DNA of 64,000 nt from Martinezella rhizogenes (GTDB lineage: Bacteria; Pseudomonadota; Alphaproteobacteria; Rhizobiales; Rhizobiaceae): positions 124,001-188,000 of the forward strand of contig NZ_JUHG01000017.1 in the NCBI RefSeq assembly GCF_000799715.1. The letters run 5' to 3'. Made by a program: the position numbers and the translations under genes. Below are positions 21,332 to 38,075 of this stretch, in pieces. The notes under the pieces were generated by a model, which did no database searches, was not told where the DNA came from, and saw nothing but the letters and a program-made list of their open reading frames with translations. How positions within the stretch are numbered: the first letter of the stretch is position 1; each line of letters begins with the position of its first letter.

Positions 21332-22318
21332 TCAGTTGACGAAGCAATTGCAATCGGCAAGTCCGGCCGGCACTTCTGCGCCGAAAGCCTTCAGAACCGT
21401 CTTGTTGATCAGCGGCGCATGGTCCGCATAGGCCGGGCGCACCGGGGCGATCGTCTTCGGATCCGCGCCCTTCAGGATCTGCGCGGCTATCTTGCCGGCA
21501 TTTTCGCCGACCTGCTCGTAATTGACCGCGAAGCTTGCCGGTACGATACCGCTGCGAACGGCGGCGTCATCCGAATTGACGATCGGGATTTGCGCCTGAC
21601 GAGCCGCCGCGGAAACGGCGGTGATCGCCGGCTGCAAGAGGTTGGAGGCGGGCGTGTAGATCACGTCGGCCTTGCCGGCCAGCGATGCGATGCGCTGCTG
21701 AATGTCGTTGACGCTGTCGACGCCAACGGGAACTACTTCGAAGCCGGCGGCAGGTGCTGCTTCCTTGACCTTCTCAAGCAGGGCGACGTCGTTGGCTTCG
21801 CCCGGATTGTAGGGCAGGCCGAAGCGCTTGGCATTCGGCAGCAGCTTCTTGGTGAAGGTCATGATGGCAGCGATATCCTGCAGGTCGGATGCGCCGGTAA
21901 TGCCCTCGTCGCCGGCATCCCAGGACGGAACCAGCTTGGCGGCGACCGGGTCGGTCACGGCCGAGAACACGATCGGGATACCCGAGCCTGCCAGCGCCTT
22001 TTTGGCGATCTGCGAGACCGGCGTGGTGACGGTGTACATCAGCTTCGGATGATCGGATTGCAGCTTGGCGATCATCTGCGGCACCAGCGAAGCGTCGAAG
22101 CTGGTGTTGCTTTCGGTGTAGACGACATCCTTGCCCTCAACGAAACCATTATCGGCCAGTGCCTTCTTGAAGCCGGCGATCGAGGCGTTGAGCTGCGGAT
22201 GTTCGCCGAAATTGGCGATGGCGATCTTGATCGGCTCGGCGGTCGCAGTCGCGACGCTCGCCATGAAAGCGCTCGCAAGAACGAGCCCGGACAGCCATTT
22301 GGACGTGGTTTTGCGCAT
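21332..22318 (-). CDS. ABC importer binding protein, TrpX-like (kyn operon)
   Basis: The 328-residue periplasmic protein has a signal peptide ending VATATAEP and the two-lobe fold of the TrpX family (related to LivJ/RbsB: IAIANFGEHPQLN, GFKKALADNGFVEGKDV). It is the first gene of the operon, with a GGGAGG ribosome-binding site. In characterised members the family binds tryptophan or tyrosine. Here kynU and a formamidase follow, so kynurenine is a reasonable candidate ligand. Confidence 0.88.
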   Translation of the reverse strand: MRKTTSKWLSGLVLASAFMASVATATAEPIKIAIANFGEHPQLNASIAGFKKALADNGFVEGKDVVYTESNTSFDASLVPQMIAKLQSDHPKLMYTVTTPVSQIAKKALAGSGIPIVFSAVTDPVAAKLVPSWDAGDEGITGASDLQDIAAIMTFTKKLLPNAKRFGLPYNPGEANDVALLEKVKEAAPAAGFEVVPVGVDSVNDIQQRIASLAGKADVIYTPASNLLQPAITAVSAAARQAQIPIVNSDDAAVRSGIVPASFAVNYEQVGENAGKIAAQILKGADPKTIAPVRPAYADHAPLINKTVLKAFGAEVPAGLADCNCFVN

Positions 22319-22403
22319 GATTTCCCTCCCGGATGTTGTGAGCAGCCGCGTTTAATCGGCCTTGTTGCGGCGGATCATAGCGCCTGCCGTGTCTCTGTCA
22401 ATT

Positions 22404-22456
22404 TCTGATATATGATATGCACCATCAGAACCTTTGATATATATTTTTACATCAGA
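22404..22456. promoter_or_regulatory. Candidate GntR operator cluster in the divergent kyn promoter
   Basis: An inverted repeat TCTGAT (22404-22409) and ATCAGA (22424-22429) is followed by another ATCAGA at 22451-22456, with TGATATAT-like steps between them. The whole stretch is strongly AT-rich. It lies between the importer operon and the divergent GntR gene, as expected for an autoregulatory operator. No consensus was matched. Confidence 0.45.
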
Positions 22457-22485
22457 GCCATTTTATATATAATTTCAGGACTCGG

Positions 22486-23232
22486 ATGACCGGGACGAAC
22501 GCCATGCAGGACAAGGACTCATTGACCAAGACGGAAGCGGCCTATTGGCTGCTACGGCGGGATATTCTCAACACGAAGCTCAGGCCCGGCGCGTCGTTGA
22601 AGCTCAGTGTCTTGCGGGATGCCTATGGTGTCGGCTGGACCCCTTTGCGCGAGGCACTGTCGCGGCTAGAGGCCGAGAAGCTTGTCACCGCGGTCAGCAA
22701 TCGCGGCTTTGCCGTCGCGCCGGTGTCGCGCGCGGAACTGGAAGACCTGATGCGGGCGCGCATGGTCGTCGAACTGCCATTGCTGCTGGAATCGATCGCG
22801 AAGGGTGGCCCGGACTGGGAATCCGCTGTCGTTACCGCTCACTACCGCCTGTCGCGCTGCAAGATCGTCCCCGATGCCGCTTCCGAGGAGATGGCGGACG
22901 AATGGGACGAGAGGCATACGGCCTTTCACGCCGCGCTGATCAGCGCGGCATCATCGAACTGGCTGCAACGCTTCCAAAGCACGATTTCCGACCAGCTCCG
23001 CCGCCACCACCGCTTCCTCGGCCTGGCGCCGACGCAGCGCGCTGCCGCAGGCCTGACGGTCGGCTACGAAAAGGCGGTCGCCGCTTTGCGCGACGCGATG
23101 GCGATGGAGCATCATACGGCGCTGATGGAAGCGGCGCTCGACCGCGATATCGAACGCGCAAGGGTGCTGATGACCGAGCATATCGGCTATACGCTGCAGG
23201 TCTATATTCACTCCGAAGACGAGGCTGGGTAA
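22486..23232 (+). CDS. GntR-family (FadR/FCD subgroup) transcriptional regulator
   Basis: The 248-residue protein has an N-terminal winged helix (LRPGASLKLSVLRDAYGVGW, TPLREALSRLEAEKLV) and a C-terminal all-helical FCD domain with the metal-ligand pattern ending ALDRDIERARVLMTEHI. It is divergent from the kyn importer operon, which it probably represses, releasing in the presence of a pathway compound. An alternative ATG lies at 22504. Confidence 0.9.
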   Translation: MTGTNAMQDKDSLTKTEAAYWLLRRDILNTKLRPGASLKLSVLRDAYGVGWTPLREALSRLEAEKLVTAVSNRGFAVAPVSRAELEDLMRARMVVELPLLLESIAKGGPDWESAVVTAHYRLSRCKIVPDAASEEMADEWDERHTAFHAALISAASSNWLQRFQSTISDQLRRHHRFLGLAPTQRAAAGLTVGYEKAVAALRDAMAMEHHTALMEAALDRDIERARVLMTEHIGYTLQVYIHSEDEAG

Positions 23233-23714: not shown

Positions 23715-26069
23715 CTAGAGCCAGCCAAGAGCCGTCGCTGCGCGAAGCGCTTCGGCGCGACGGCTGCACCCCAGCTTTCTGAAAAGATTGCCGAGATGGA
23801 ATTTCACCGTCACCTCGGAAATGTTGAGCGTTTGGGCGATGCGCTTGTTCGACAGTCCACCGGCGATCAGTTGCAGCATCTGCGCTTCGCGCTGTGACAA
23901 GCCGCCCTGCAATGCGCGGGCCTGTGGTGAATTCACCGAGGTAGAGAAGATGGAAAGCGCGGTTCGGACATCGGAGAAAGTTTCGATGAAGCTTCGGATG
24001 CGCCGGTTTTTCAAAAGAGGCGCCAGGAAGATCCGCTCCTCGGACAATACGCCATTGCATCCAAGCCGAGTCGCGCTTTCGAGCGCGGACAGGATATGCG
24101 CGCGCGCTGCGGCATTGTCGCGGCGCTGGTGCGCGGCGTAACTCCGCCACAGCTGCAGCGCCACTTTTTCCCGGTTCGTAACCTGCGGGTTGGCGATAAG
24201 AGCATCGATCTGGCGCGAGAGATAGGCGCGGGGCGTCGAAAGGCGTACGGCATCGCGCAACCACGCCATGGCATAGGAAATCTCATCGCGTCGGCTCAGA
24301 CGTGTCAGTTCCTCGGTCGCACTTTCGACCCAGTTGCGCCCGATCCGCATGCGCACGGCTGAAAGCGTGGCGGCCGCATCGCCCCAGCGATTGGCGTTCT
24401 GATAAGCGATGGCGGTGCGGATCTCCATCATCGCGTGAAACTGCAGCCCCTCCGACAGATGGATCCATAGCCCGTCCAGGAAGCCGGGCCGGATCGCCAT
24501 TGGGAAATGGTCGGCTAAAACCTGCGAGGCGTAGTGAAGTGCGAACTGCATCAGGCTCGGCCAGATCTCCGCGGCGGCGAACTGTTCGAATTCCGTCTGG
24601 ACAAAATCCAGAAGATCGCGCGAACGCCCCGTTTCATAGGCGATGCAGGCCTCCGCCAGACGCAGCATTCGGAACTCCGCTTCCGCCTCATGTGGAACCT
24701 GTTCCAGCTTGCTCCGCGCTTCCCGTGCGGCTTGTCTGGCGAACAGTGCGTCGCCGCTCATCAGGCACAGCACGATCTGATGCAGATGAATGAAGAATTC
24801 GAGCAGCGGCTGTCCGCTTAGTTGGCGCAGATAGATCAGGGCGCGGGCGGCTGCGGCCTCCGCCTCGCGAAAGTTGCGGCGGCGGATCTCGAACTCGAGA
24901 AGCGCATTGTAGTACGCCGCCCATTTGCCGTGGTCGCCCATCGGATAATCCGCCATGAACTCGCCAAGGCGGGTGATCATCGCATCGCTCGGCGTCAGGT
25001 CCTCGGCAATCATCAGATTGAGCCTGAAGGTCCGGGCGGCGAAGGAAAATCGTGATCCGCGCGCCAGGACCTTCAAGGGGTCCAGATAGTCGGAGCCGAG
25101 ATGCCGGCTCAGGAGATGGCGCACGCGCTGCAATTCGCCCTGCTTCAGAAGCGTTCGTGTGACGGCAAAGAGCACCGTTTCGTTGGTCGCGATCATCTCC
25201 TGTGAGAAGCGCAGGACGATATCCCGAAACCTGTTCAGGCTGCTGCGATAGATCAGGTCCCGGCCGTGAGCGCGTTCGAGGATCTGCGCCGCATGGGCCT
25301 CGTGCCCGTGGTCGATGAGCAGGGCCATGGCCGCAAGCGATCGTCCCGCCCGCTCGTATGCCGATGCGACCTCTATCACCGCTCCCTCGGTCTCGAATGT
25401 CGCCAGTCGTTCGCGCACGGCGATGGCAAGAAGCCGCAAAAGGTCCGGATGTTTTTCCGGGTTCGCCGTCAGAAACGGCGGCAGCATCTCCGTCCAGTCT
25501 CCAGTCGGCGCGGGCAAGGAGGCCTCGAGCCAGATCGAGAGAGCAGTCGTCTGCCCGGGCGGCAGATGGCTGAGAAAAGTCTCTCGCAGGTAGTCGATGC
25601 ACAGCCTTTCATTCGGGGCAGATACCAGGGGCAGAAAGGCAGGCCAACCCGCATATCCGTCGCGCATGAGGCTTGCCTGCTCGCAAGGCAGCTCGCGCAG
25701 CTCGCCCTCGGTTAAAGTCATGTCGATCGCATCGAATGTGGCGGAGCGACGGTAGAGGATCTGCCGCGCCAATCCACTGATGCGCTGATCCGGACGGCAC
25801 GCGATCACGACGGATTGGGCAGTGTCCAGAACCTGAGCGGAAAGCCGTGCCGATCTCGCGGAGACCGGCACATCCCACAAAAGCCATCCGTCCTCGACGT
25901 CATCCAGCCGGGGCTGCTGCAATGAGCAGACACGCTTGCCCAACATCTCCGCAACCATACGCAACAGGACGGTTTTTCCAGCGCCGGCGGGCGCGCGCAG
26001 GAAGATCACACCCGCGGTTTCATCGGCAATGCGGCAACAGAGATGAGGGCGCGGCAAAAACATGCTCAT
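23715..26069 (-). CDS. MalT-like LuxR-family (LAL) transcriptional regulator
   Basis: This is a large ATP-binding regulator of about 784 residues. The N-terminus carries a P-loop (APAGAGKT), the middle is a long helical TPR-like sensor region, and the C-terminus is a LuxR/GerE helix-turn-helix (LSQREAQMLQLIAGGLSNKR, followed by ISEVTVKFHLGNLFRKLG). The frame opens at a GTG at 26087; the ATG at 26069 or 26063 is equally possible. It is divergent from the ABC/hydantoinase operon 120-140 bases away and is its likely activator. LAL proteins are usually activated by ATP and a small ligand. Confidence 0.88.
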   Translation of the reverse strand: MSMFLPRPHLCCRIADETAGVIFLRAPAGAGKTVLLRMVAEMLGKRVCSLQQPRLDDVEDGWLLWDVPVSARSARLSAQVLDTAQSVVIACRPDQRISGLARQILYRRSATFDAIDMTLTEGELRELPCEQASLMRDGYAGWPAFLPLVSAPNERLCIDYLRETFLSHLPPGQTTALSIWLEASLPAPTGDWTEMLPPFLTANPEKHPDLLRLLAIAVRERLATFETEGAVIEVASAYERAGRSLAAMALLIDHGHEAHAAQILERAHGRDLIYRSSLNRFRDIVLRFSQEMIATNETVLFAVTRTLLKQGELQRVRHLLSRHLGSDYLDPLKVLARGSRFSFAARTFRLNLMIAEDLTPSDAMITRLGEFMADYPMGDHGKWAAYYNALLEFEIRRRNFREAEAAAARALIYLRQLSGQPLLEFFIHLHQIVLCLMSGDALFARQAAREARSKLEQVPHEAEAEFRMLRLAEACIAYETGRSRDLLDFVQTEFEQFAAAEIWPSLMQFALHYASQVLADHFPMAIRPGFLDGLWIHLSEGLQFHAMMEIRTAIAYQNANRWGDAAATLSAVRMRIGRNWVESATEELTRLSRRDEISYAMAWLRDAVRLSTPRAYLSRQIDALIANPQVTNREKVALQLWRSYAAHQRRDNAAARAHILSALESATRLGCNGVLSEERIFLAPLLKNRRIRSFIETFSDVRTALSIFSTSVNSPQARALQGGLSQREAQMLQLIAGGLSNKRIAQTLNISEVTVKFHLGNLFRKLGCSRRAEALRAATALGWL

Positions 26070-26206
26070 GATGGTCCGATAGATCACTGTCGCACAAAAA
26101 CCTATACCATACTGCTAAAAAACTATACCTTTGTGAGGTTGCCTGCAGAGGCGTTGAGGGAAATGCTTGTGTCCCTACGCAGCTGGTCAACAAGGCACCC
26201 CTAGCG
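26070..26206. promoter_or_regulatory. Divergent promoter region of the LAL regulator and transport/hydantoinase operon
   Basis: Within this AT-rich interval two near-identical blocks, AACCTATACCAT and AACTATACCTTT, occur about 20 bases apart (26099-26136). Direct repeats of this kind are typical of MalT-like activator sites, but no consensus was checked. Confidence 0.35.
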
Positions 26207-27235
26207 ATGCAGCAACATCCGTTGGTCGCGATCCTCACTCGGATCGGCACGTTCGTGCTGGTCATGATCGCCCTGTCCATCATGATCTTTCTGCTGGCGC
26301 GCGTCGTGCCGGGCGATCCCGCGCGCATGGCGCTCGGGCCGGCCGCGACGCAGGAACAGGTCGATACGCTGCGTCTTCAGATGGGCCTCAATCAGCCGAT
26401 GGTGCTGCAATATCTCGACTATGTGCGCAACGCCCTGCACGGCGATCTCGGAATGTCGCTCGTTTCGCAGCGTCCGGTCACGACCGACCTCGCCCAGACT
26501 GTTCCAGCGACCGTGGAGCTGGTGCTCGTCTCCGTGATCTTCATGTTTGTGGTCGCTATTCCGCTGGGCGTCATCACCGCGCATTACCGCGATCGCGCCT
26601 GGGATCATATCGGGCGTGTCCTGTCCCTGACCGGGGTAACGATTCCAAGTTTTCTGTTTGCGATCAGCCTGCAATTGCTGGCGGCGCGTTACCTTCCCGG
26701 CTGGCCGATCATCGGCAGGATCGATCATACATTGAACTGGCAAGGCGGCCCCACGGGTTTCCTGTTGCTTGACGGGCTGCTGGCGGGACGTTTCGACGTC
26801 ATGCTGAACGCGCTGCAACACCTGGTGCTGCCGGCCTTCGCGCTGTCCATGGCGGGTATCGGGCAGATCACCCGGATCACCCGCTCGTCGATGATCGAGA
26901 ACCAGCGCAAGGATCATGTCCTGACGCTGCAAAGCTTCGGCGTGCCGGAACGCGTCATCATCTTTCGCTATTTGCTCAAGCTCTCCTCCATCGCGCCGCT
27001 GACGATCATGGGCCTCGAATTCGCGTCGCTGATCGGCAATGCCTTTGTGATCGAAATGGTCTTCGCCTGGGGTGGCTTCGCCTCCTATGGGCTAACAGCA
27101 ATCCTTCAGAAGGATCTGAATGCGATCACCGCCGTGGTGCTGGTGGCGGGGCTGTTCTTCATCGTTGCGAACCTGATCGTGGACGTCCTGATCTCAGTCA
27201 TCGACCCGCGCCTGCGCCGCAGGGAGGCACGCTGA
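26207..27235 (+). CDS. Peptide-type ABC permease 1 (DppB-like)
   Basis: The 342-residue permease has the DppB/OppB architecture: an N-terminal TM (LVMIALSIMIFLLARVVPGD, the family signature), a long periplasmic loop, and the EAA-type cytoplasmic loop (LQSFGVPERVIIFRYLLKL). It works with the DppC-like partner that begins at its last base (TGATG overlap). The importer family takes up dipeptides, oligopeptides, glutathione, nickel and various amides. Confidence 0.92.
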   Translation: MQQHPLVAILTRIGTFVLVMIALSIMIFLLARVVPGDPARMALGPAATQEQVDTLRLQMGLNQPMVLQYLDYVRNALHGDLGMSLVSQRPVTTDLAQTVPATVELVLVSVIFMFVVAIPLGVITAHYRDRAWDHIGRVLSLTGVTIPSFLFAISLQLLAARYLPGWPIIGRIDHTLNWQGGPTGFLLLDGLLAGRFDVMLNALQHLVLPAFALSMAGIGQITRITRSSMIENQRKDHVLTLQSFGVPERVIIFRYLLKLSSIAPLTIMGLEFASLIGNAFVIEMVFAWGGFASYGLTAILQKDLNAITAVVLVAGLFFIVANLIVDVLISVIDPRLRRREAR

Positions 27236-28116
27236 TGGCCGATATGAATATGCTCGATGCTTCCGATCGGGGACTGAGCGACGGTTATATGATGTGGTAT
27301 CGCTTCAGCCGCAATCCGGCTGCGGTGATCGGCACGTTGATGCTGATTTCGGTCGCCGTACTGGCGGTTTTCGCGCCGTGGCTGACGCCCTATCCGAAGC
27401 ATGTGGGTGCGGTCGTCGATTTCCGTGCGCGGCACATGCCGCCGGACCTGACGCATTGGTTCGGCACGGACAAGGCGGGCCGCGATATTTTCTCGCGGAC
27501 GGTCTTTGGCCTTCGCGTCTCGCTTCTTCTCGTGATTGGCGTGCTTGGCATTTCGGTGCCGATAGGCACCGTGCTCGGCCTGATCGCGGGCTACTTCGGC
27601 GGCTGGGTCGAGAAGATCATCACCGGGCTGACAAATGTGATGCTGGCGATGCCGCCTCTGGTGATGGCGCTTGCTGTGTCCAATCTGCTCGAGCCGACGC
27701 TGATGAATGCGATGATCGCAATCACGCTTCTGTGGTGGACGTGGCACGCGCGGCTGATCTATTCGGTCTCCAAATCGATTGCCTCCGAAGACTTCATCGA
27801 AGCCGCCCGTCTTGCCGGCGCCGGTCCGATGCACATCCTGTTTCGCGAGATCCTGCCGAATTGCGTCGCGGTGATTTCGGTGAAGACGACGCTGGATGCG
27901 GCCTTCGTGATCCTGTTCGGCGCGACGCTCAGCTTTCTCGGTTTCGGCGTCAAGCCACCAACACCCGACCTTGGCTCCATGGTCGCCGATGGGCGGCAGT
28001 TCATGCCCGATTACTGGTGGGAAGTCCTTTGCCCCGGTGTGGCCGTGCTTTATGTGACGCTCGGGTTCAATCTTCTCGGCGATGGCCTACGCGATATGTT
28101 CGATGTGGAGAGCTGA
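27235..28116 (+). CDS. Peptide-type ABC permease 2 (DppC-like)
   Basis: The 293-residue permease has the usual DppC N-terminus (FSRNPAAVIGTLMLISVAVL), the HWFGTDKAGRDIFSR block that identifies the family, and the EAA loop (EAARLAGAGPMHILFREILP). The start overlaps the stop of the DppB-like gene by one base, so the two are translated together. Confidence 0.93.
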   Translation: MADMNMLDASDRGLSDGYMMWYRFSRNPAAVIGTLMLISVAVLAVFAPWLTPYPKHVGAVVDFRARHMPPDLTHWFGTDKAGRDIFSRTVFGLRVSLLLVIGVLGISVPIGTVLGLIAGYFGGWVEKIITGLTNVMLAMPPLVMALAVSNLLEPTLMNAMIAITLLWWTWHARLIYSVSKSIASEDFIEAARLAGAGPMHILFREILPNCVAVISVKTTLDAAFVILFGATLSFLGFGVKPPTPDLGSMVADGRQFMPDYWWEVLCPGVAVLYVTLGFNLLGDGLRDMFDVES

Positions 28117-28120
28117 GCCC

Positions 28121-29767
28121 ATGGCCGAACCGCTTCTGAAGGTCGAGGCCCTCAACGTCTCCTTCACCACCTACGGCCGTACCCGGCAGGTCCTGCGTGA
28201 TGTGGGCTTCACCGTTGCCGCCGGAGAGCGCGTCGCGCTGATCGGGGAAACCGGATCGGGCAAATCGGTAACCGCGAAGGCGATCATCGGCACTCTACCG
28301 AAGAATGCGACGATCAGCTCGGGCACGATCGCGGTTGCGGGGCGCAACGTGCTGACCATGCCTCGATCCGAGCGCGAAGCGCTGAAGGGTACGGCGTTCT
28401 CGCTGATCATGCAGGACCCGCTTTCGTCCTTCAATCCGGTGTTCAAGATCGGCACGCATCTCGATGACGTCATGCGCTTCGCCGATAAGCGCGATGGCGT
28501 GGTTTCGTCTAGGGCGGATCGCCGCCTACGTATCGCGGCGGTGCTGCGTCGGGTTCAGCTTGCCGACGGCGAGCGCGTGATGAACGCCTATCCGTCGGAA
28601 CTGTCGGGCGGCATGCGTCAGCGCGTATTGATCGGGCTTGCGCTGCTGCATCAGCCGAAGCTCTTGATTGCCGACGAACCCGGCACGGCGCTCGACGTGA
28701 CCACGCAGGACGAGATCCTGAACCTTATCAACCAGCTGGTCGTCGAGGAGAACATGGCTCTCCTGATGATCACCCACAATCTCGGCGTCGTGCGCAAGGT
28801 CGCGGACCGGGTCGTGGTCATGCATCATGGCGATATCGTCGAGGCCGGTCCTTGCACCGAGATTCTGCACAGTCCGAAACAGCCCTACACCAAGGCGCTC
28901 CTCGAGGCGGTGCCGCCGCTTTATGGCCGGCGCGTCACCGACCTGCCGCAAAGCGATCGCGCTCCCATCGTCAAGGTCGAGGCGTTGAACAAGATCTATG
29001 GCAGGCGTCCCGGCTTCCACGCCGTGCGCGATGTGAACCTGACGCTGCGCGAGGGCGAAATTTTCGGGCTTGCCGGCGAATCCGGCTCGGGCAAAACCTC
29101 GGTGGCTCGCATCATCATGGGCCTGTCGCGCCCGACCTCTGGAAGCGTCACCATTGATGCCCCCGCGCCGGGGCATGGCAAACGGTTGACCCAGATCGTC
29201 TACCAGAATCCCGGTACCTCGCTCAACCCGAAGCGCACGGTGAAGCAAACACTTGCCCTGCCGCTGAGATCCATCGGCATGGATGGGCCAGCACGCGAGG
29301 CGCGGATGAGCGAGTTGATGGGCCTTGTCCGTCTGCCGCAATCCTATCTTGCGAAGTATCCGCACGAACTTTCAGGCGGCCAGAAGCAGCGTGTGGCCAT
29401 CGCGCGCGCTCTTGCGGCCGAGCCGAAGATCCTGATCCTGGACGAGCCCACCGCCGCCCTCGATGTCTCGGTGCAGAAGACGGTGATCGAGCTGCTCCTG
29501 CAATTGCGCCGGGATCTCGGTCTCACCTACCTGATGATCTCGCACGACCTTTCGCTGATGCGGAATTTCTGCTCGCGCATTGCGATCATGCTGCGGGGCG
29601 AGATCGTGGAGGAGGGGCCGACGTCCGAGGTCTTTGCCGAGCCGAACCATCCTTACACCCGCGCGCTGATCGCCGCGATCCCCGTCGTCACCGACGAGGA
29701 GGAGCGCCAGAAACCCGTCGTGACCCAGGAAGAGCGCATGCGCTTCCTCGTGAAAACCATAGATTGA
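28121..29767 (+). CDS. Peptide-type ABC transporter, fused double ATPase (DppDF/GsiA-like)
   Basis: The 548-residue protein joins two ATPase domains. Domain 1 has Walker A GETGSGKS and signature LSGGMRQR; domain 2 has GESGSGKT, LSGGQKQR and Walker B ILILDEPTAALD. The EPNHPYTRALIAAIP segment typical of the oligopeptide ATPase C-terminus is present in both halves. The ATG at 28121, four bases after the DppC stop, is preferred over 28082, which would overlap the permease gene. It energises the DppB/C-like permeases. Confidence 0.93.
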   Translation: MAEPLLKVEALNVSFTTYGRTRQVLRDVGFTVAAGERVALIGETGSGKSVTAKAIIGTLPKNATISSGTIAVAGRNVLTMPRSEREALKGTAFSLIMQDPLSSFNPVFKIGTHLDDVMRFADKRDGVVSSRADRRLRIAAVLRRVQLADGERVMNAYPSELSGGMRQRVLIGLALLHQPKLLIADEPGTALDVTTQDEILNLINQLVVEENMALLMITHNLGVVRKVADRVVVMHHGDIVEAGPCTEILHSPKQPYTKALLEAVPPLYGRRVTDLPQSDRAPIVKVEALNKIYGRRPGFHAVRDVNLTLREGEIFGLAGESGSGKTSVARIIMGLSRPTSGSVTIDAPAPGHGKRLTQIVYQNPGTSLNPKRTVKQTLALPLRSIGMDGPAREARMSELMGLVRLPQSYLAKYPHELSGGQKQRVAIARALAAEPKILILDEPTAALDVSVQKTVIELLLQLRRDLGLTYLMISHDLSLMRNFCSRIAIMLRGEIVEEGPTSEVFAEPNHPYTRALIAAIPVVTDEEERQKPVVTQEERMRFLVKTID

Positions 29768-29784
29768 TCGAAGAGGAGCCTGAC

Positions 29785-31341
29785 GTGTATCGCGTTGGAA
29801 TTGACGTCGGCGGCACCAATACGGACGCTGTCGTACTGAATGGAAAGACTGTGTTGGCGGGGGTCAAGGCCTCGACGACCGAAGACGTGACGTCGGGCGT
29901 GATCGAAGCACTCGAAAAGGTGATCGAAGCGTCCGGCATCGACCGGGCGCGGATTGCGGCTGTCATGATCGGTACGACGCATTTTACCAATGCGGTGATC
30001 GAGCGGCGTCACATGGACGAAGTCGCGGCGATTCGCCTGAGCCTGCCGTCGGGGGCCGGCCTGCCGCCGATGGTCGACTGGCCCGACGACCTTCGCGAGA
30101 TCGTCGGCAATCATGGGTATCAGGTGAAAGGCGGCTATGAATTCGACGGGCGCGAACTCTCGCCACTGGACGAGGACGCCATTGTCCGGATCGCGGGCGA
30201 CATCCGTGCCAAGGGTCTGAAGGCGGCGGCTGTCACCTGCGTCTTCAGTGGCATCAACGACGCCATGGAACTCCGCGCCAAGGAGATCTTGCAACAGCAT
30301 TGCCCCGGTCTGCCGGTCGTGATGTCAAAGGATATCGGTCGCCACGGCCTGATCGCCCGCGAGAGCGCGACGATCATGAACGCCAGCCTCCTGTCGCTCG
30401 CGGATCGCACCGTGGCGGCATTCGGCAAGGCCCTGGAGACGGCGGGGATACCGTGCCCGTTCTATATTACGCAGAACGACGGCACGCTGATGGCCGCCGA
30501 TGTCGTGCGCGGTTTCCCGGTCCTGACCTTCGCCTCCGGCCCGACCAACTCGATGCGGGGTGCGGCATTCCTGACCGGTATCAAGGATGCCGTTGTCGTC
30601 GATGTCGGCGGCACCACCTCGGATGTCGGCTCGCTTTCGCACGGCTTCCCGCGCCAGGCCTCGACTACGGTCGATATCGGCGGCGTGCGCACGAACTTCC
30701 GGATGCCCGATGTGTTCTCGATCGGCTTGGGCGGCGGCTCGCTGGTCGTCAGAGGCGACGCCGGCCTGACCGTGGGACCGAAGTCGGTGGGCTACCGCGT
30801 TCGCAAGGAAGCCCTCTGCTTCGGCGGCACGACGCTGACCGCGACCGATATCGCCGTCGCCTCCGGCAAGGCCGATGTGGGTGACAGGGCGCTGGTCGCA
30901 AACCTCGACAAGGTACTGGTCGATACGGCCGTCGCGAAGATCAATGCGATGCTCGAAGCCTGCGTCGAGCGCAGCCGCATCTCATCGACGCCCGTGCCGG
31001 TGATCGCCGTGGGCGGCGGTTCCATCCTCATGCCCGACCGTATCGGTGAATTGGAGGTGATCCGGCCTGAGAATTTCGCCGTGGCGAATGCCGTCGGCGC
31101 CGCTATCGCGCAGATCAGCGGTGAAACGGACCGCGTTTTCTCGCTGATCGACGGACGCACGCGCGAAAGCGCGCTCGCAGAAGCGGAAGCGGAAGCGCGT
31201 GAGAAAGCGATCGCTGCGGGGGCGCTTGCCGAGACGCTTGAGGTCATCGAGCGCGAGGACATGCCGCTTGCCTATCTGCCCGGCAACGCCACGCGCATCC
31301 ACGTCAAAGTCGTCGGAGAAATGGGAGGCGATCATGCCTGA
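29785..31341 (+). CDS. Hydantoinase/oxoprolinase A-type protein (HyuA), copy 1
   Basis: The 518-residue protein is of the HyuA/oxoprolinase subunit A type, which uses ATP to activate cyclic amides. It opens with the ASKHA phosphate-binding loop (DVGGTNTDAV, residues ~6-15), followed by GTTHFTNAV, the hydantoinase_A block SGPTNSMRGAAFLTG and DVGGTTSDVG. The GTG at 29785 has AGGAG six bases before it; a TTG at 29764 would overlap the ATPase gene. It overlaps the DUF917 gene by 8 bases. No HyuB partner is present; the DUF917 protein takes that place. Confidence 0.88.
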   Translation: MYRVGIDVGGTNTDAVVLNGKTVLAGVKASTTEDVTSGVIEALEKVIEASGIDRARIAAVMIGTTHFTNAVIERRHMDEVAAIRLSLPSGAGLPPMVDWPDDLREIVGNHGYQVKGGYEFDGRELSPLDEDAIVRIAGDIRAKGLKAAAVTCVFSGINDAMELRAKEILQQHCPGLPVVMSKDIGRHGLIARESATIMNASLLSLADRTVAAFGKALETAGIPCPFYITQNDGTLMAADVVRGFPVLTFASGPTNSMRGAAFLTGIKDAVVVDVGGTTSDVGSLSHGFPRQASTTVDIGGVRTNFRMPDVFSIGLGGGSLVVRGDAGLTVGPKSVGYRVRKEALCFGGTTLTATDIAVASGKADVGDRALVANLDKVLVDTAVAKINAMLEACVERSRISSTPVPVIAVGGGSILMPDRIGELEVIRPENFAVANAVGAAIAQISGETDRVFSLIDGRTRESALAEAEAEAREKAIAAGALAETLEVIEREDMPLAYLPGNATRIHVKVVGEMGGDHA

Positions 31342-32467
31342 GACGCGCAAGCTGAAATATGACGACGCCGTCCTGCGCATACTGACGCCGGAAGACCTCG
31401 ATGCGCTGGAGATCGGCGCCGGCATTCTCGGCACCGGCGGTGGCGGCAATCCGTATCAGGGCAAGCTTCTCGCCCTTGAGGCGATGAAGGCCGGTTACGA
31501 GATGAAGGTTCTTGCCACCGACAGTATCGAGGCGGATGCGCTATGCATGTCCATCGGCGGCATCGGCGCCCCGGTCGTCGGCGTGGAGCGTATCCGCGAA
31601 GGGCGCGAGGGGCTGCGCTGCCTGCGCGCGATGGAAGAGCTGATCCGCACGCCGATCGATGCCATCGTCTGCGAGGAGATCGGCGGTTCGAATGCGATGA
31701 ACCCGCTGGTCACGGCGGCGCTCGGTGGGCTGCCGGTCCTCGATTGCGACGGCATGGGTCGGGCCTTTCCCGAAATGCAGATGACCACCTTCTCGATCTA
31801 TGGTCACAGCTCTACGCCCTCGGTGATGTGCGATCTGCACGGGAATGCCGTGATCTTCAGCCATGCGGTGTCCGAGGTCTGGCACGAGCGCATGGCGCGC
31901 GCCTGCGTCGTGGCCCAGGGCGGCGGCGCCATGCTCGCGACGGCGCCGATGCAGGCGCACTACGTCCATCAATATGGCATTCAGAAAAGCTACACCAAGG
32001 CGATCGCGCTCGGCGAAGCGGTGATCCGCGCGCGCAAAGCGCAGGAAGATCCGATCGCGGCAGTTTGTGCGCTTGAGGGCGGGCGACGCATCTTCAACGG
32101 CAAGATCACCGATCTGAAGCGCCATCTGCGTGGCGGCTTTGCCGTGGGCGACATGGAGCTTGCGGGCTTTGACGATTGCATCGGTCAGACGGCGAACGTG
32201 GCGATCCAGAACGAATTCCTGATCTTCCGCCGGGACGGCAAGGTCGAGGTCTGCGTGCCCGATCTGATCGTCCTGCTGGATGTCGATACGGGTTATCCAA
32301 TCACCACCGAAATGCTGCGCTACGGCCAGCGCGTCGCCGTGATCGCCATCCCCTGTCACGAATTGCTGCGCAGTGCGCGCGCGCTCGACGTCGTCGGCCC
32401 GGCGGCCTTCGGCTACCGCGACATTACTTACCTGCCGTTGCCTGCTCCTGTGGGGACGGCAGCATAA
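31334..32467 (+). CDS. DUF917 family protein, copy 1
   Basis: The 377-residue soluble protein has the DUF917 hallmark ILGTGGGGNPY (residues ~31-41), EIGGSNA and the later block GFDDCIGQTANVAIQNE. As I recall, Pfam has renamed part of this family after S-methyl-thiohydantoin desulfurase, which would fit a hydantoin-like ring as substrate. It starts inside the end of HyuA copy 1, so the two proteins are probably made in equal amounts and may form a complex. The direct chemistry is not established here. Confidence 0.88.
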   Translation: MPETRKLKYDDAVLRILTPEDLDALEIGAGILGTGGGGNPYQGKLLALEAMKAGYEMKVLATDSIEADALCMSIGGIGAPVVGVERIREGREGLRCLRAMEELIRTPIDAIVCEEIGGSNAMNPLVTAALGGLPVLDCDGMGRAFPEMQMTTFSIYGHSSTPSVMCDLHGNAVIFSHAVSEVWHERMARACVVAQGGGAMLATAPMQAHYVHQYGIQKSYTKAIALGEAVIRARKAQEDPIAAVCALEGGRRIFNGKITDLKRHLRGGFAVGDMELAGFDDCIGQTANVAIQNEFLIFRRDGKVEVCVPDLIVLLDVDTGYPITTEMLRYGQRVAVIAIPCHELLRSARALDVVGPAAFGYRDITYLPLPAPVGTAA

Positions 32468-32522
32468 TCACATAATCATAAGCGGGGCAGTTTCAGTTTC
32501 CGCATCCAAGAGGAGAACGTGA

Positions 32523-34118
32523 ATGAAAATGGGTTCCAATAGTTTGCGCCTTGCAGCACTGTTCCTCGGCACGGCCATGGCGCTGCCGCTGACGTCGGTT
32601 GCGGCCTCGTCGGCCGACAAGGTGTCGATCGCCGTCAATACGATGCAGATCTTCAGCTCGCTCGACCCGGCGAAGGTCACCGACTACACCGGCTACATGG
32701 CCATCGTGAACATGTATGACGGTCTGACAACGGTGAGCCCTTCGGGCGATATCGTTCCCCATCTGGCAAAATCTTGGGAAATCTCGCCGGACGGCCTGAC
32801 CTACACCTTCCATCTGCGTGATGACGCCAAATTCCAGGACGGCACGCTACTCAAGGCCTCGGACTTCGTCTGGTCGATCCGGCGTCTGCTCGGCATCAAC
32901 AAAGGTCCCTCGAACCTCGTCGTCGGCCTTGTGAAACCCGAAAACATCACCGCGCCCGACGATACCACCGTCGTCATCAAGCTCGACCGTCAGTTCTCGC
33001 CCTTCATGGCGGTGACGCCGCTGATGATGGCGCTCAACGAAAAGCTGATCGAGGCCAATACGAAGCCGGAGGACAAATGGGGCGAAGCCTATGTCGGCGA
33101 GCATTCGGCGGGCTCGGGGCCTTACAAGCTCGTCAGCTACAACCGTTCGGCCGACATGGTGATCGCGCGTAACTCTGACTATTTCCTCGGCTGGACCAAG
33201 GGCACGCCGATCGACGAAGTGCGCTTTATTCAGACGAGCGACGATGCCACGGTGAAGGCCCTGGCCGAGAAAGGTGATCTCGGCCTTTCCTCGCATGGCA
33301 TGGGCAATGACACCTATGAGACAATCGGCAAGATGCCGAACTACAAGCTGATCCAGACCGGCACGGCCGGCGGCTTCGTCATCAAGCTGAACTCCAAGGT
33401 CTATCCGACGGATGATGTCCATGTACGGCGGGCGATCGCCTATGCGACCGACTACAAGACCATTCAGGAGGCGATCTATCCGGGCTTCGACATGACCGGC
33501 CCGCTTTCGACCGCATTCAAGGATGCCCATAGCGACGACATCCAGCCGGGTGTCTTCGACCTCGAAAAGGCCAAGGAAGAGCTTGCCAAGTCGAAATATG
33601 CTGGCCAGAAGATCACGCTGGTCAACAGCTATGTCGCCTCGCTCGCATTTGAGGCGGACGTGGCGCTGCTGATGCAGGCAAATCTTGAACAGATCGGCAT
33701 CACCCTCGACATCAAGCCCGAGCCGTGGAACCGCATCGTCGAGCTCTCTTCCAAGCCGGAAACGACGCCTGCGTCCACGCAGGTCAACATCTCGCCCAAT
33801 TATCCCTCGCCGGATGCGATATTCTACAACCAGTATCACTCCAAGGCTTCAGGCACCTGGATGTCGATGGAATGGCTGCAGAATCCGGAGGTCGATGCGC
33901 TGATCGACAAGGCGCGCGCGACCACCGACGTCAAGGAACAGAACGCGGCCTACAAGGAGCTTCAGGCGAAGCTCTTCGATCTGCAGCCGGATGTTTGGGC
34001 CGTATCGCCGAACCGCCGTTATGCCGCGAACAAATGCTTGCAGGGTTACGAATTCATCCCGATGCAAAGCTGGGATCTGAACTTCTCGAACTTCCATTGG
34101 GACTGCAAGGCGAACTGA
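32523..34118 (+). CDS. Peptide-type ABC binding protein (solute-binding family 5)
   Basis: The 531-residue periplasmic protein belongs to the DppA/OppA family. A signal peptide (LAALFLGTAMALPLTSVAAS) is followed by the family signature region (LAKSWEISPDGLTYTFHLRD) and the GPYKLVSYN block. An AGAGGAG tract precedes the ATG. It is the substrate receptor for the DppBC-like permeases, although it is placed four genes downstream of them, between two hydrolase pairs. Confidence 0.93.
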   Translation: MKMGSNSLRLAALFLGTAMALPLTSVAASSADKVSIAVNTMQIFSSLDPAKVTDYTGYMAIVNMYDGLTTVSPSGDIVPHLAKSWEISPDGLTYTFHLRDDAKFQDGTLLKASDFVWSIRRLLGINKGPSNLVVGLVKPENITAPDDTTVVIKLDRQFSPFMAVTPLMMALNEKLIEANTKPEDKWGEAYVGEHSAGSGPYKLVSYNRSADMVIARNSDYFLGWTKGTPIDEVRFIQTSDDATVKALAEKGDLGLSSHGMGNDTYETIGKMPNYKLIQTGTAGGFVIKLNSKVYPTDDVHVRRAIAYATDYKTIQEAIYPGFDMTGPLSTAFKDAHSDDIQPGVFDLEKAKEELAKSKYAGQKITLVNSYVASLAFEADVALLMQANLEQIGITLDIKPEPWNRIVELSSKPETTPASTQVNISPNYPSPDAIFYNQYHSKASGTWMSMEWLQNPEVDALIDKARATTDVKEQNAAYKELQAKLFDLQPDVWAVSPNRRYAANKCLQGYEFIPMQSWDLNFSNFHWDCKAN

Positions 34119-34185
34119 TCTCCGCATTCCAGACAAGCAGACCCGGCCCCGTTGGGGTCGGGAACGCCATTGCCGAAGGTGACAC

Positions 34186-35262
34186 ATGCTTCAGGAATTT
34201 TCCGAAGACGACATCGAGCCGCTTGCAACGGGTGCCTGGATTCTGGGGACCGGGGGTGGCGGCAATCCCTATATCTCGACGCTGAATCTCCGCCGTCTTT
34301 ATGCCGAGGGCCGGCGCGTTCAGGTGATGGACCCGATGGCGCTTGACGACGACGACATGGTTGCCGTCGTCTCGAAGATGGGCGCGCCGCTGGTCAGCCA
34401 GGAGCGGCTGGGCGATCCCGTTCATCTTGCCCGCGCGGTCGAGGTTATGGAGGATTACCTCGGCAAGCCTTTCCGCGCGATCATGAGTGTGGAGATCGGC
34501 GGTTCGAATGCGCTGTCTTCCTTTCTTGCCGCAGCCATGCTCGGCCGCCCGGTCGTCAACGCCGATGCGATGGGCCGCGCCTATCCGGAGGCGCAGATGA
34601 CTTCCTTTGCCATCGGCAATCTGCCGATGTTCCCGCTTTCTCTGGTCGATGTGCGCGAAAATGAAGTCATCGTCACCCGCGCGGCGTCGTGGAAATGGAT
34701 GGAGCGGATCTCGCGCAAGATCTGCACCGAGGTCGGCTCGACAGCCGCCACCTGCAAAGCACCCCGCACCGGCCGGGAGGTCAAGGAATGGGGTATTCAC
34801 TATACGATCACCAAGGCGACCGAGCTCGGCCGGGCCGTGATCGTGGCGCGTGCGCGCCACGATGATCCGGTGAAAGCGGTTCTCGAACACGAGGGCGGTA
34901 AGCAGCTGTTTCGCGGCAAGGTCATCGACGTTGCGCGCGAGACCACCGGCGGCTTCCTGCGAGGACGCACGGTGATCGAAGGCATCGACGCGGACAAGGG
35001 TGCGCGTATGGAGCTGGCCTTCCAGAACGAATGGGCGGTCGCTTTCCGCGACGGCGAGCCTGTTGCGATGACGCCGGATCTTCTGTGCCTGCTCGACACG
35101 ATTTCGGGCGGCGCGATCGGCACGGAATCGGTGCGGTACGGCCAGCGCGTGACGGTCGTGGCTCTGCCTGCCCCGAAACTCCTGACCTCGCCCGCGGGGA
35201 TCGCCGCGGTCGGCCCTCGTGCTTTCGGTTATGACATTGATTTCAGATCGGTATTCGCATGA
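34186..35262 (+). CDS. DUF917 family protein, copy 2
   Basis: The 358-residue paralogue of the DUF917 protein upstream keeps ILGTGGGGNPY (residues ~19-29) and EIGGSNALSSF but is clearly diverged, so this is an old duplication and not a recent copy. It lacks about 15 N-terminal residues of copy 1. Its stop overlaps the start of HyuA copy 2 by four bases (ATGA), which means tight co-translation. Confidence 0.88.
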   Translation: MLQEFSEDDIEPLATGAWILGTGGGGNPYISTLNLRRLYAEGRRVQVMDPMALDDDDMVAVVSKMGAPLVSQERLGDPVHLARAVEVMEDYLGKPFRAIMSVEIGGSNALSSFLAAAMLGRPVVNADAMGRAYPEAQMTSFAIGNLPMFPLSLVDVRENEVIVTRAASWKWMERISRKICTEVGSTAATCKAPRTGREVKEWGIHYTITKATELGRAVIVARARHDDPVKAVLEHEGGKQLFRGKVIDVARETTGGFLRGRTVIEGIDADKGARMELAFQNEWAVAFRDGEPVAMTPDLLCLLDTISGGAIGTESVRYGQRVTVVALPAPKLLTSPAGIAAVGPRAFGYDIDFRSVFA

Positions 35263-36797
35263 AACGCATCGGTATTGACGTTGGCGGCACCAACACGGAT
35301 GCCGTCTTGATCGACGGCGAAAACATCATCGCCTCGATCAAGGTTCCCACGACGCAGGACGTGATGTCGGGCGTGAAGGCGGCGTTGAGCCATGTGGCGG
35401 GGCAAGCGGGAGGAGCTGGCCGTCCCATCGATGCAGTGATGATCGGCACGACGCATTTCACGAATGCCGTGGTCGAGCGCGCGCGCCTGGAGCGCGTCGC
35501 GGCGATCCGCATCGCCTTGCCGACCGGCGCGTCGCTGCCGCCGATGTGCGACTGGCCGGAGGATCTGCGTGCTGCGGTCGATCCACTGATCTTCATGGTG
35601 CATGGCGGCCACGAATATGACGGCAGCCTGCTGGTGCCGATGATCCCCGATGAGATCCGCGACGCCGCGATGAAGATCCGCGACGCGGGCATTACCTCAA
35701 TCGCGATCTCCGCCACCTTTTCGCCGCTGACGACCGAATGCGAGGTCAAGGCGGCCGAGATCGTCCGTTCGGTGATCCCGGATGCGAGGATCACGCTGTC
35801 GCATACGCTTGGCCGGATCGGATTGCTGGAGCGCGAGAACGTCGCGCTTTTGAATGCGGCGCTGCAATCCCTCGGCAAGACGACCGTGCAGGCTTTTTCG
35901 GATGCGCTGCGCGAGGCGGGCTTGGCCGCACCTTTCTATTTGACGCAGAACGACGGCACGGTGGCGCTTGCCGATGTGGCGGCGGCAAACCCGGTTCATA
36001 GTTTCGCCTCCGGACCGACGAACTCGATGCGCGGCGCGGCCTTCCTGACCGGGCTCACGGATGCCATGGTCGTCGATGTCGGTGGCACCACCTCGGATAT
36101 CGGCTGCCTTGTCGGTGGCTTTCCGCGCGAGGCGAACAATATCGTCCATATCGGCGGTGTACGCACGCTGTTCCGCATGCCTGACCTCCTGCCGATCGCT
36201 CTTGGTGGCGGAACGATCATCGATCCGGAAACCGGAAAGATCGGCCCGCGCTCGGTCGGCTATCGCATCTTGACTGAAGCCCGCGTCTTTGGCGGCAACA
36301 CGCTGACCACGTCGGATGTCGCTGTCGCGGCGGGATTGATCGAGATGGGCGACAGGGACCGCGTGAAGAACCTTGATCCGGCCTTCGTCAAGACGAGCCT
36401 CGGGCGTATCCGTGATATGGTCGCAGACAGCTTCGATCAGATGAAGACCTCGGCGGAGGATGTGCCACTGATTGCCGTTGGCGGCGGAGCCTTCCTGATC
36501 CCGGACAAGATCGCCGGAGCTTCCGAAATTCTTCGCGTCGAAAATGCCGGCGTGGCGAATGCACTGGGTGCCGCGATGGCGCAGGTCTCCGGCGAAGTCG
36601 ATCAGGTGTTCTCGGGCCTGAGTCGTGACGAGGCGCTTGCAAAAGCGGAGGATGGGGCGCGAGATGCCGCCGTCGCTTCCGGCGCGAGCCGTGCAAGCCT
36701 CAAGACCCTCGAGGTCGAGGATATCCCGATCGCCTACCTGCCGGGCGGGGCGCGCCGCGTGCGTGTGCGGGTGATCGGAGACATCGCTTTCAATTAA
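35259..36797 (+). CDS. Hydantoinase/oxoprolinase A-type protein (HyuA), copy 2
   Basis: The 512-residue paralogue of HyuA copy 1 keeps DVGGTNTDAV at the N-terminus, GTTHFTNAV, SGPTNSMRGAAFLTG and DVGGTTSDIG. The order is reversed relative to the first pair: DUF917 then HyuA. The ATPase-fold motifs are complete, so both copies should be active. The two pairs may act on different ring-containing substrates or on successive intermediates. Confidence 0.9.
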   Translation: MKRIGIDVGGTNTDAVLIDGENIIASIKVPTTQDVMSGVKAALSHVAGQAGGAGRPIDAVMIGTTHFTNAVVERARLERVAAIRIALPTGASLPPMCDWPEDLRAAVDPLIFMVHGGHEYDGSLLVPMIPDEIRDAAMKIRDAGITSIAISATFSPLTTECEVKAAEIVRSVIPDARITLSHTLGRIGLLERENVALLNAALQSLGKTTVQAFSDALREAGLAAPFYLTQNDGTVALADVAAANPVHSFASGPTNSMRGAAFLTGLTDAMVVDVGGTTSDIGCLVGGFPREANNIVHIGGVRTLFRMPDLLPIALGGGTIIDPETGKIGPRSVGYRILTEARVFGGNTLTTSDVAVAAGLIEMGDRDRVKNLDPAFVKTSLGRIRDMVADSFDQMKTSAEDVPLIAVGGGAFLIPDKIAGASEILRVENAGVANALGAAMAQVSGEVDQVFSGLSRDEALAKAEDGARDAAVASGASRASLKTLEVEDIPIAYLPGGARRVRVRVIGDIAFN

Positions 36798-36799
36798 AG

Positions 36800-37014
36800 A
36801 AAATCGCATGGCCCCGGCAAGGGCGAGTTTTTCATCTGCAATGTGGTGGGCATGACATTGCGTCTCGCGTGGCCTATCTGAAACAGGATCTCGCGAGCGC
36901 TGCGCACCGCGTTGTCAATCGCGATCTCGCGCCCTATCACATCAGGACTGGATAACGGCTGAAGGCAGAGCCTTCGTCGCCACCCACGAGAAAATCTACG
37001 AGGTCACGCTGTGA
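36800..37014 (+). pseudogene. Decayed end of an unidentified gene
   Basis: The 228 bases between HyuA copy 2 and the dipeptidase gene are not ordinary spacer. Protein-like runs occur in shifted frames: AYLKQDLASAAHRVVNRDLA (stop near 36955) and then AEGRAFVATHEKIYEVTL ending in a TGA at 37012-37014. This looks like the C-terminus of a gene that has lost its frame and most of its length. The family is not recognised. Confidence 0.35.
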
Positions 37015-37025
37015 CGGAGGCAAGA

Positions 37026-38075
37026 ATGAGCGAAGATCCGATCCATATTCCCGTATTCGATGGGCATAACGACATTCTGTCGCGCCTGATGGGCGAGGGG
37101 CGTGTGGGCGCGGAGGCGCGCTTCCTGAACGGACAGGAGGGCGTGCACATCGACCTTCCCCGTGCACGGCAGGGCGGTCTCGTCGGCGGACTTTGCGCTG
37201 TCTATGTCCCCGGAACCGGCAAGGCGCTGGATGCCAACGGCGATCTGCCACGGGTCGATCGTCAGAGCGCGCTGGATCACACGATCGCGCAGGCCGCTCT
37301 CCTGCGCCGGATAGAGGGGCAGTCGGAAGGCGCTTTCACGGTCTGCACGTCGGTCGCGGAAATCCGGACCGCAATCGAATACGGCAGCTTCGCCGCGGTC
37401 TTCCATATCGAGGGAATTGAAGCTGTCGGACCGGATCTCGATTTTCTCCATCTGCTTCACGCGGCGGGGTTGCGCACGCTCGGTCCGGTCTGGAGCCGCC
37501 CCAACATCTTCGCGCATGGCGTACCCTTCCGTTTCGGTCATGGTCCCGATATCGGACCCGGATTGACCGAAGCCGGTCGCGACCTGATCCGCCTGTGCAA
37601 CCGGCTGAAGATCATGATCGACCTTTCGCATATGAACGATGCCGGGTTTTGGGATGTCGCGAAAATCTCGGATGCGCCGCTCGTCGCCTCGCATTCGAAC
37701 GCCTTTGCGATCTGCCCCCATAGCCGCAATGCGACCGACAGGCAGCTCGATGCGATCCGTGAGACAGGCGGCCTCATCGGGCTGAATTTCGGCGTCAAGT
37801 TCCTCCACCCCGAGGGCAAGGCCGATGCCGGGACGGATATTTCGGTGATGGTGCGCCACATCGACTATCTGGTTGAACGGGTGGGCATCGATCATGTCGC
37901 GCTGGGATCGGATTTCGACGGCACGCTGATCTCGAACAAGATTGGCGACGTCACCGGCCTTCCGCGCCTGCTGAGCGCGCTGCGGCAGGCAGGCTATGAT
38001 AACGAGGCGCTGACGAAGATCGCGCATCGCAACTGGCTTTCGGTGCTAGAACGCACCTGGGGAGCATGCCACTAG
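37026..38075 (+). CDS. Membrane (renal-type) dipeptidase, peptidase family M19
   Basis: The 349-residue zinc dipeptidase hydrolyses dipeptides, often with a D-residue or dehydro-residue at the C-terminal side. Metal ligands are visible: His14 and Asp16 in FDGHNDI, the bridging glutamate in HIEGIEAV, His in IDLSHMND and in ASHSN, and Asp in ALGSDFDG. GGAGG lies six bases before the ATG at 37026, which is preferred over the upstream GTG at 37011. It is the last intact gene of the transporter/hydantoinase operon and could cleave the dipeptide or N-substituted amino acid released by the ring-opening enzymes. Confidence 0.9.
   Translation: MSEDPIHIPVFDGHNDILSRLMGEGRVGAEARFLNGQEGVHIDLPRARQGGLVGGLCAVYVPGTGKALDANGDLPRVDRQSALDHTIAQAALLRRIEGQSEGAFTVCTSVAEIRTAIEYGSFAAVFHIEGIEAVGPDLDFLHLLHAAGLRTLGPVWSRPNIFAHGVPFRFGHGPDIGPGLTEAGRDLIRLCNRLKIMIDLSHMNDAGFWDVAKISDAPLVASHSNAFAICPHSRNATDRQLDAIRETGGLIGLNFGVKFLHPEGKADAGTDISVMVRHIDYLVERVGIDHVALGSDFDGTLISNKIGDVTGLPRLLSALRQAGYDNEALTKIAHRNWLSVLERTWGACH

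Follow-up and report, generated by a model that had tools for sequence, protein, structure and literature searches.

A conserved rhizobial operon joining two HyuA-DUF917 pairs to a dipeptide-type importer, with a putative role in the use of cyclic peptide-like amides

The HyuAB hydrolases, which include 5-oxoprolinase, N-methylhydantoinase and CapAB, are ATP-dependent enzymes of two subunits; in 5-oxoprolinase the phosphorylation is the work of subunit A, and hydrolysis requires subunit B (PMC6061476). Here we describe an operon at positions 26207-38075 of a 64,000-nucleotide window (the whole stretch of DNA analysed) from contig NZ_JUHG01000017.1 of Martinezella rhizogenes, whose two HyuA proteins share with these hydrolases the ASKHA ATPase fold and its motifs, but are shorter (512-525 aa) and have a DUF917 protein as neighbour, with no HyuB on the contig. 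In the reading that we lean towards, with moderate confidence, the operon would provide for the putative import of a cyclic peptide-like amide, its ATP-dependent opening by HyuA and DUF917, and cleavage of the resulting dipeptide.

Other described systems have parts of this gene content in common with the operon. The thiohydantoin and S-methyl-thiohydantoin desulfurases belong to the Pfam family of the two DUF917 proteins (D1 and D2; DUF917 is S-Me-THD_N/_C in present Pfam), but D1 and D2 fall short of the curated desulfurase cut-offs and are paired with HyuA. In PMC11055893 (2024), genes for DUF917, AroM and dipeptide-type ATP-binding cassette (ABC) transporters are described as enriched near cyclodipeptide-oxidase genes, and the DUF917 family as being without experimental characterisation. 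Those clusters resemble the operon in DUF917, the dipeptide-type transporter and a presumed cyclic-amide chemistry; they differ in that the operon carries two HyuA-DUF917 pairs and ends with genes for IaaA (isoaspartyl peptidase/L-asparaginase, here a remnant) and an M19 dipeptidase, and no cyclodipeptide oxidase-like domain is present in its nine genes or in five neighbours checked. A beta-aspartyl peptidase together with an importer is also the arrangement where IaaA stands beside Gsi/Dpp-type importers, the layout in E. coli. It is found too in cyanophycin utilisation loci, and IaaA enzymes accept a range of beta-aspartyl dipeptides (PMC10206079). The operon differs from these in its two HyuA-DUF917 pairs and in having no cyanophycinase among the genes checked. 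Finally, the aga genes for uptake and catabolism of agropinic acid, which include a HyuA-like ring opening, share with the operon an importer with a family 5 binding protein, and are set apart from it by the operon's terminal peptidases and DUF917 neighbour and by the weak similarity of the binding proteins. The initial annotation of this DNA knew of no described system with such gene content, and in the literature that we searched we found no substrate assigned to a homologous cluster (nothing usable was found on agropinic acid or ergothioneine); the content was nonetheless partly anticipated by the neighbourhoods of DUF917, AroM and dipeptide-type transporter genes near cyclodipeptide oxidases in PMC11055893.

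Gene order, conservation and control

Nine genes run in one direction from 26207 to 38075, with domains over their Pfam cut-offs (the permease domain family is PF00528), and a regulator gene and a predicted operator lie upstream:

26207..27235, + strand: DppB-type permease (PermB; BPD_transp_1 and BPD_transp_1_N)
27235..28116, + strand: DppC-type permease (PermC; BPD_transp_1 and OppC_N)
28121..29767, + strand: fused double ABC ATPase of DppD-DppF type (two ABC_tran stretches and oligo_HPY)
29764..31341, + strand: HyuA1, ASKHA-type ATPase subunit, 525 aa (PF05378 and PF01968)
31334..32467, + strand: DUF917-1 (D1; S-Me-THD_N and _C; start set by alignment with relatives)
32523..34118, + strand: periplasmic binding protein, family 5 (SBP_bac_5)
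34186..35262, + strand: DUF917-2 (D2; S-Me-THD_N and _C)
35259..36797, + strand: HyuA2, 512 aa (PF05378 and PF01968)
36803..37014, + strand: iaaA remnant, C-terminal part only (tblastn with intact IaaA, DNA alignment with the related locus L042)
37011..38075, + strand: M19 dipeptidase, GTG start (Peptidase_M19, E 4.2e-98)
23715..26087, - strand: divergent LuxR-type regulator, 790 aa (Pfam GerE over cut-off, C-terminal helix-turn-helix)
26101..26128, + strand: direct repeat MCYATAC-N14-MCYATAC, likely operator (predicted; conserved in the alignment of upstream regions)

The domains named in the initial annotation, and the single direction of the nine genes, are borne out by Pfam and by the list of open reading frames. 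Its description of the junctions as overlaps or short gaps holds for most of them: PermB and PermC overlap, as do ATPase/HyuA1 and D2/HyuA2 (4 bp each) and HyuA1/D1 (about 8 bp), and the gaps measure about 4 bp (PermC-ATPase), 55 bp (D1-binding protein) and 67 bp (binding protein-D2). It does not hold between HyuA2 and M19, where the gap of 213 bp contains the IaaA remnant. The conserved unit extends past these limits, since the regulator, which diverges from PermB across a 119-bp gap, and the direct-repeat element belong to it too.

An alignment made from five DUF917-2 sequences served to scan a collection of species genomes, giving 465 pattern matches and 393 confirmed relatives, and genes were mapped on the best 80 of these 393, to which all locus counts refer. 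Loci with HyuA1 are called type 1 (51) and those without it type 2 (28), HyuA1 being what defines the type; the contig of the one locus in neither type, L049, begins inside the binding protein. The initial annotation proposed a search for the eight-gene neighbourhood, and the order PermB, PermC, ATPase, HyuA1, D1, binding protein, D2, HyuA2 is kept in all 51 type-1 loci, each with a divergent LuxR-type regulator, an arrangement far beyond chance because eight core genes and a regulator recur in one order, although sister species account for many of these loci, which cannot be counted as independent. A core gene is cut or split in three of them (HyuA2 in L052, by the contig end; HyuA1 in L078; PermB in L088), and the HyuA1 match of L092 has a stop at its very 5' end. 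The hosts include Rhizobium, Agrobacterium, Neorhizobium and Xaviernesmea as well as the Rhodobacterales Alloyangia, Salipiger and Acidimangrovimonas, and the cluster is plasmid-borne in Rhizobium sp. 11515TR and Alloyangia pacifica. By DUF917-2 identity the nearest named loci are in Rhizobium sp. ICMP 5592 (99%) and R. rhizogenes NBRC 13257 (98%), in a comparison from which records of the window's own genome may have been left out. Comparison of the eight core genes with five relatives gives ratios of non-synonymous to synonymous substitution (dN/dS) of 0.02-0.22, a mark of purifying selection, and M19 gives 0.09-0.17 against the three of the five in which it is whole.

The two halves of the repeat start 21 bp apart, within a block conserved across 52 aligned upstream regions, and a conserved TTG begins 16 bp past the start of the second CTATAC. 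All type-1 loci but one (50 of 51) have the repeat in exact form, L081 carrying a variant, and no type-2 locus has it in that form (0 of 28). Its strict form has a single exact match in the 6.5-Mb genome, at the operon promoter, and 0.04 matches would be expected by chance in the window with one mismatch allowed. It is a likely operator, through which the divergent regulator may act; from its size and layout we presume the regulator to be MalT/LAL-like. The repeat was also considered as a marker of a genome-wide regulon and dropped, the reversed controls matching as often or more: with one mismatch allowed there are three matches in this genome versus 14 for the control, and a looser pattern is present in 26 out of 385 same-class genomes (with two matches in this one), its reversed control giving visibly more matching rows, though these were not counted. 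Locus L154, which is not type 1, has one match, distant from its DUF917-HyuA pair. Because looser forms are common by chance elsewhere, the claim rests on position, fixed spacing and upstream conservation.

Between 26000 and 38700 there are no sigma-70 consensus promoters (3.0 expected) and seven terminator-like sites (7.9 expected), and this lack of internal promoters and of any terminator excess speaks, from sequence alone, against separate and unrelated transcription units. Together, gene order in 51 of 51 loci and the shared promoter repeat support a single conserved unit with its own regulator. Upstream of the regulator, at 21332-23232, are genes for an ABC_sub_bind binding protein (- strand) and a GntR/FCD regulator (+ strand).

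The HyuA-DUF917 pairs

Sequence identity is 52% between HyuA1 and HyuA2 and 40% between D1 and D2. The genome has seven matches to the HyuA N-domain and four to HyuB (PF02538), the latter on contigs C2 (three) and C10 (one) and none on the operon contig, C6. Because both HyuA genes overlap a DUF917 gene and no HyuB is near, DUF917 would be the candidate for the second half-reaction in place of HyuB. The ring-opening role given to HyuA in the initial annotation is retained in a modified form, with DUF917 rather than HyuB as neighbour and with an operon end that was most likely IaaA and M19 ancestrally, of which IaaA has decayed here.

The columns of two ASKHA motifs, D-V-GGTNTD and D-V-GGTT-x-D, to which we ascribe phosphate roles in HyuA, are invariant in 38 HyuA1/HyuA2 rows, and a stricter regular expression for both is matched by 134 of 152 rows. 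Relatives of HyuA1 include N-methylhydantoinase and 6yra, deposited as 5-oxoprolinase/caprolactamase. A model of HyuA2 (mean predicted local distance difference test score, pLDDT, 70.3, with several stretches below 50) aligns with acetone carboxylase (Z 17.2, root-mean-square deviation (rmsd) 6.0, 457 residues aligned) and with caprolactamase A (Z 15.7, rmsd 4.5, 454 aligned), and as modelled the fold matches ATP-dependent amide and ketone enzymes over its length. The D2 model (pLDDT 85.7) has a single clear relative, CV_3147 (2o3i; Z 34.5, rmsd 2.8, 331 aligned). None of the HyuA, DUF917 and M19 genes of the operon reaches an NCBIfam cut-off; HyuA1 and HyuA2, at 107.2 and 90.4 bits, are far below the CapA equivalog cut-off of 1000 (caprolactamase alpha, NF050156).

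That D1 and D2 sit in a Pfam family named for S-methyl-thiohydantoin desulfurase would fit degradation of thiohydantoins or ergothioneine derivatives, an option raised in the initial annotation. It is weakened by the curated desulfurase models: D1 scores 107.2 bits against NF058529 (cut-off 440) and 111.3 against NF058532 (cut-off 450), D2 scores 92.6 and 112.3, and as a positive control a third, lone DUF917 gene of the genome, on contig C3 (L162 10446-11687, - strand), passes with 608 bits versus 440. We consequently set aside D1 and D2 as thiohydantoin desulfurases and regard this explanation of the operon as very improbable. DUF917 genes occur on plasmids from lactobacilli to rhizobia, and most of the same-genus genomes searched have a DUF917 match about as distant from D2 as this third copy is.

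The importer and the end of the operon

The transport genes have the make-up of a Dpp/Opp-type ABC importer, with a family 5 binding protein, two permeases and two ATPase domains with oligo_HPY. The best sequence match of the binding protein in the PDB is AgaA (6hlx, E 1.5e-34), which we take to bind agropinic acid, and the type-1 hosts include Agrobacterium and R. rhizogenes; the operon might thus serve the catabolism of a lactam opine, much as in agropinic acid breakdown, by an importer and a HyuA-type lactam opening. The relation to AgaA is distant, however, and the next chain is nearly equal (E 1.3e-30), the same operon occurs in Rhodobacterales, and M19 and IaaA are left unexplained, as to our knowledge opines of the agropinic-acid type have no peptide bond. 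We therefore consider opine catabolism quite unlikely.

In Alloyangia pacifica an intact IaaA gene lies between HyuA2 and M19, and the 213-bp gap of the window has a two-piece tblastn match to the C-terminal end of IaaA. DNA alignment with L042 indicates a loss of about 740 bp, comprising the intergenic stretch and the first ~220 codons with HGTVGAV, presumably the motif of the catalytic threonine; two smaller deletions, of 1 bp and about 70 bp, come in addition. The iaaA gene of R. rhizogenes NBRC 13257 apparently has the 5' junction in common with the window and a different second deletion, and the M19 GTG start overlaps the former iaaA stop by 4 nt. Of the 51 type-1 loci, 37 have an open IaaA, 12 an open M19, and 40 at least one of the two. 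Both are open in nine, namely all five type-1 Rhodobacterales loci (L086-L089, L092) and four Rhizobiaceae or Rhizobiales loci, and because of this distribution it is likely that the ancestral operon ended IaaA-M19, with repeated loss afterwards. IaaA is open alone in 25 loci and next to an M19 remnant or split M19 in three (L042 13639-14651, L078 13665-13930 and L070), the mirror image of the window; in three more M19 is open and IaaA is reduced to a remnant (L043, L090) or interrupted by a stop (L056), and in one IaaA is split into two frames. In L084, one of the loci with neither gene in place, an IaaA lies ~3 kb downstream on the opposite strand.

IaaA of the relatives has the Asparaginase_2 Pfam domain (L042, L034) and is close to solved beta-aspartyl peptidases, and HGTVGAV is present in 44 of 45 IaaA frames and absent from the broken one of L056. 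The M19 product scores 328.8 bits in Pfam against a cut-off of 26, its nearest solved structures are 3ly0/3fdg, and it retains the motifs that we take to form the metal site. Elsewhere the genome has one intact IaaA, on contig C4, and another M19, on C11.

Two alternatives turn on these genes. The first is utilisation of the hydantoin type, in which the pairs would open a hydantoin-like ring to an N-carbamoyl compound and the peptidases would be incidental, as could be argued from the HyuA family name and the likeness to N-methylhydantoinase, from the NCBIfam family names by which DUF917 thiohydantoin desulfurases handle such rings, and from Shinella HZN7, in which a D2-HyuA2 pair adjoins racemase-like genes and, behind it, an M20 aminoacylase-family gene. 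Hydantoin pathways are expected to end in a carbamoylase, and there is no M20 or carbamoylase-type gene among the nine; the genes behind HyuA2 are instead IaaA and M19, cutters of peptide or beta-aspartyl bonds, and this explanation seems unlikely. By analogy, the ending, M20 in Shinella HZN7 versus IaaA/M19 here, may mark the type of ring.

The second is scavenging of beta-aspartyl or isoaspartyl dipeptides, with HyuA-DUF917 acting on a side compound. The open IaaA of 37 loci speaks for it, as does the intact IaaA on C4, which is likewise beside ABC importer genes. Both pairs are nevertheless present in all 51 type-1 loci (a type defined by HyuA1), and IaaA is missing or broken in 14; ring opening rather than IaaA thus looks like the core, and we think scavenging improbable.

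Related cluster types and the proposed pathway

Quick trees, with support from the Shimodaira-Hasegawa-like approximate likelihood ratio test (SH-aLRT) only and distant outgroups on long branches, place type-1 HyuA2 and D2 next to the closest type-2 pairs (support 100 and 97). Those type-2 pairs are solitary and diverge from a transporter and from AroM-type genes. HyuA1 groups with HyuA from a third cluster type (G010, G025, G377; LuxR-type regulator, binding protein, permeases, two ATPases, one HyuA and two DUF917), the support of 96 applying to the split between these together with the outgroup and the rest, and D1 joins the first DUF917 of the third type at 92, under the starred level. Because the two HyuA-DUF917 pairs have different relatives among the other cluster types, the operon seems to be composite, two modules of separate history having been joined.

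Several further associations were seen. Beside type-2 pairs an AroM domain and a LuxR helix-turn-helix occur in one protein (by Pfam in L037 11007-11918 and L036 10901-11788), and in all 28 type-2 loci (L093-L121 except L114) the AroM-protein match reaches into the helix-turn-helix; 26 of the 28 have a second AroM match without it. The AroM domain is related to Asp/Glu/hydantoin racemases, and the fused protein seems to be a racemase fold recruited as a ligand sensor. In same-class genomes (L154 5573-14860, L155 5594-7726) a HyuA-DUF917 pair occurs with a TonB receptor. In L154 a large regulator of LuxR type is present too, along with an M17 aminopeptidase, a further kind of peptidase beside such pairs.

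In the pathway that we favour, uptake of a small cyclic peptide-like amide (a cyclic dipeptide, cyclic imide or lactam, probably aspartate-based) would fall to the binding protein and Dpp-type importer, and HyuA would spend ATP in the cell to phosphorylate the ring amide, with DUF917, in the place of HyuB, completing hydrolysis to open the ring. The two pairs could act on two related rings or stereoisomers, or in two steps. The terminal IaaA and M19 both cut dipeptides, which suggests that the product is a peptide, and the greater frequency of IaaA at this end suggests that it contains aspartate; the linear dipeptide or beta-aspartyl dipeptide would be cut by M19 and ancestrally also by IaaA, whose step in this strain may be taken over by M19 or by the intact IaaA located on another contig. 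The divergent regulator would turn the operon on through the 21-bp-spaced repeat. More tentatively, HyuA-DUF917 may form a separate class of ATP-dependent cyclic-amide hydrolases with DUF917 for HyuB, and the operon may serve aspartate-derived cyclic dipeptides or succinimides, opened to beta-aspartyl and alpha-dipeptides that IaaA and M19 remove; this fuller version we consider possible but rather doubtful. From the proposal of uptake, ring opening and amino-acid release in the initial annotation, the conserved unit stands; it may not be a complete route, as M19 is intact in only 12 of 51 loci.

A number of observations weigh against the favoured pathway. Neither peptidase is found behind HyuA2 in ten of the 51 type-1 loci (L052, cut by the contig end, among them), by which the peptidase is dispensable or replaced; a replacement was sought in the first three downstream open reading frames of the other nine and no family recurs, the only recurring frame, under the simple rule used to call frames, being one that overlaps HyuA2. 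IaaA or M19 matches are likewise lacking in the retrieved stretches around the 28 type-2 pairs, which have AroM-type neighbours. The in-operon IaaA proteins of L034 and L035 score 243 and 248 bits against the beta-aspartyl-peptidase model NF007589 (cut-off 567), so that the relation is at the level of the family. The fold search with D2 gave no structural link between DUF917 and HyuB, and CV_3147 was deposited without a function, though a missing match for DUF917 proves nothing; an apparent natural DUF917-HyuA fusion in L158 proved to be two overlapping genes, the long open frame being an out-of-frame extension; and the literature searched held no biochemistry or assay of any HyuA-DUF917 pair. 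The double ATPase, moreover, passes the NCBIfam models for NikD (403 vs 319) and NikE (354 vs 333), scores that probably reflect the two summed domains of the fused protein. Nickel import was itself rejected, as the binding protein and permeases fall short of NikA (130/393), NikB (226/447) and NikC (248/358).

The operon offers a good way into the study of DUF917: its binding protein can be screened, its two enzyme pairs can be tested separately, the peptidases IaaA and M19 at its end suggest a dipeptide or beta-aspartyl dipeptide as product, and its regulator has a single likely site. The proposed pathway, if true, would reveal how bacteria of the soil and those associated with plants make use of peptides closed into rings, which resist ordinary peptidases.

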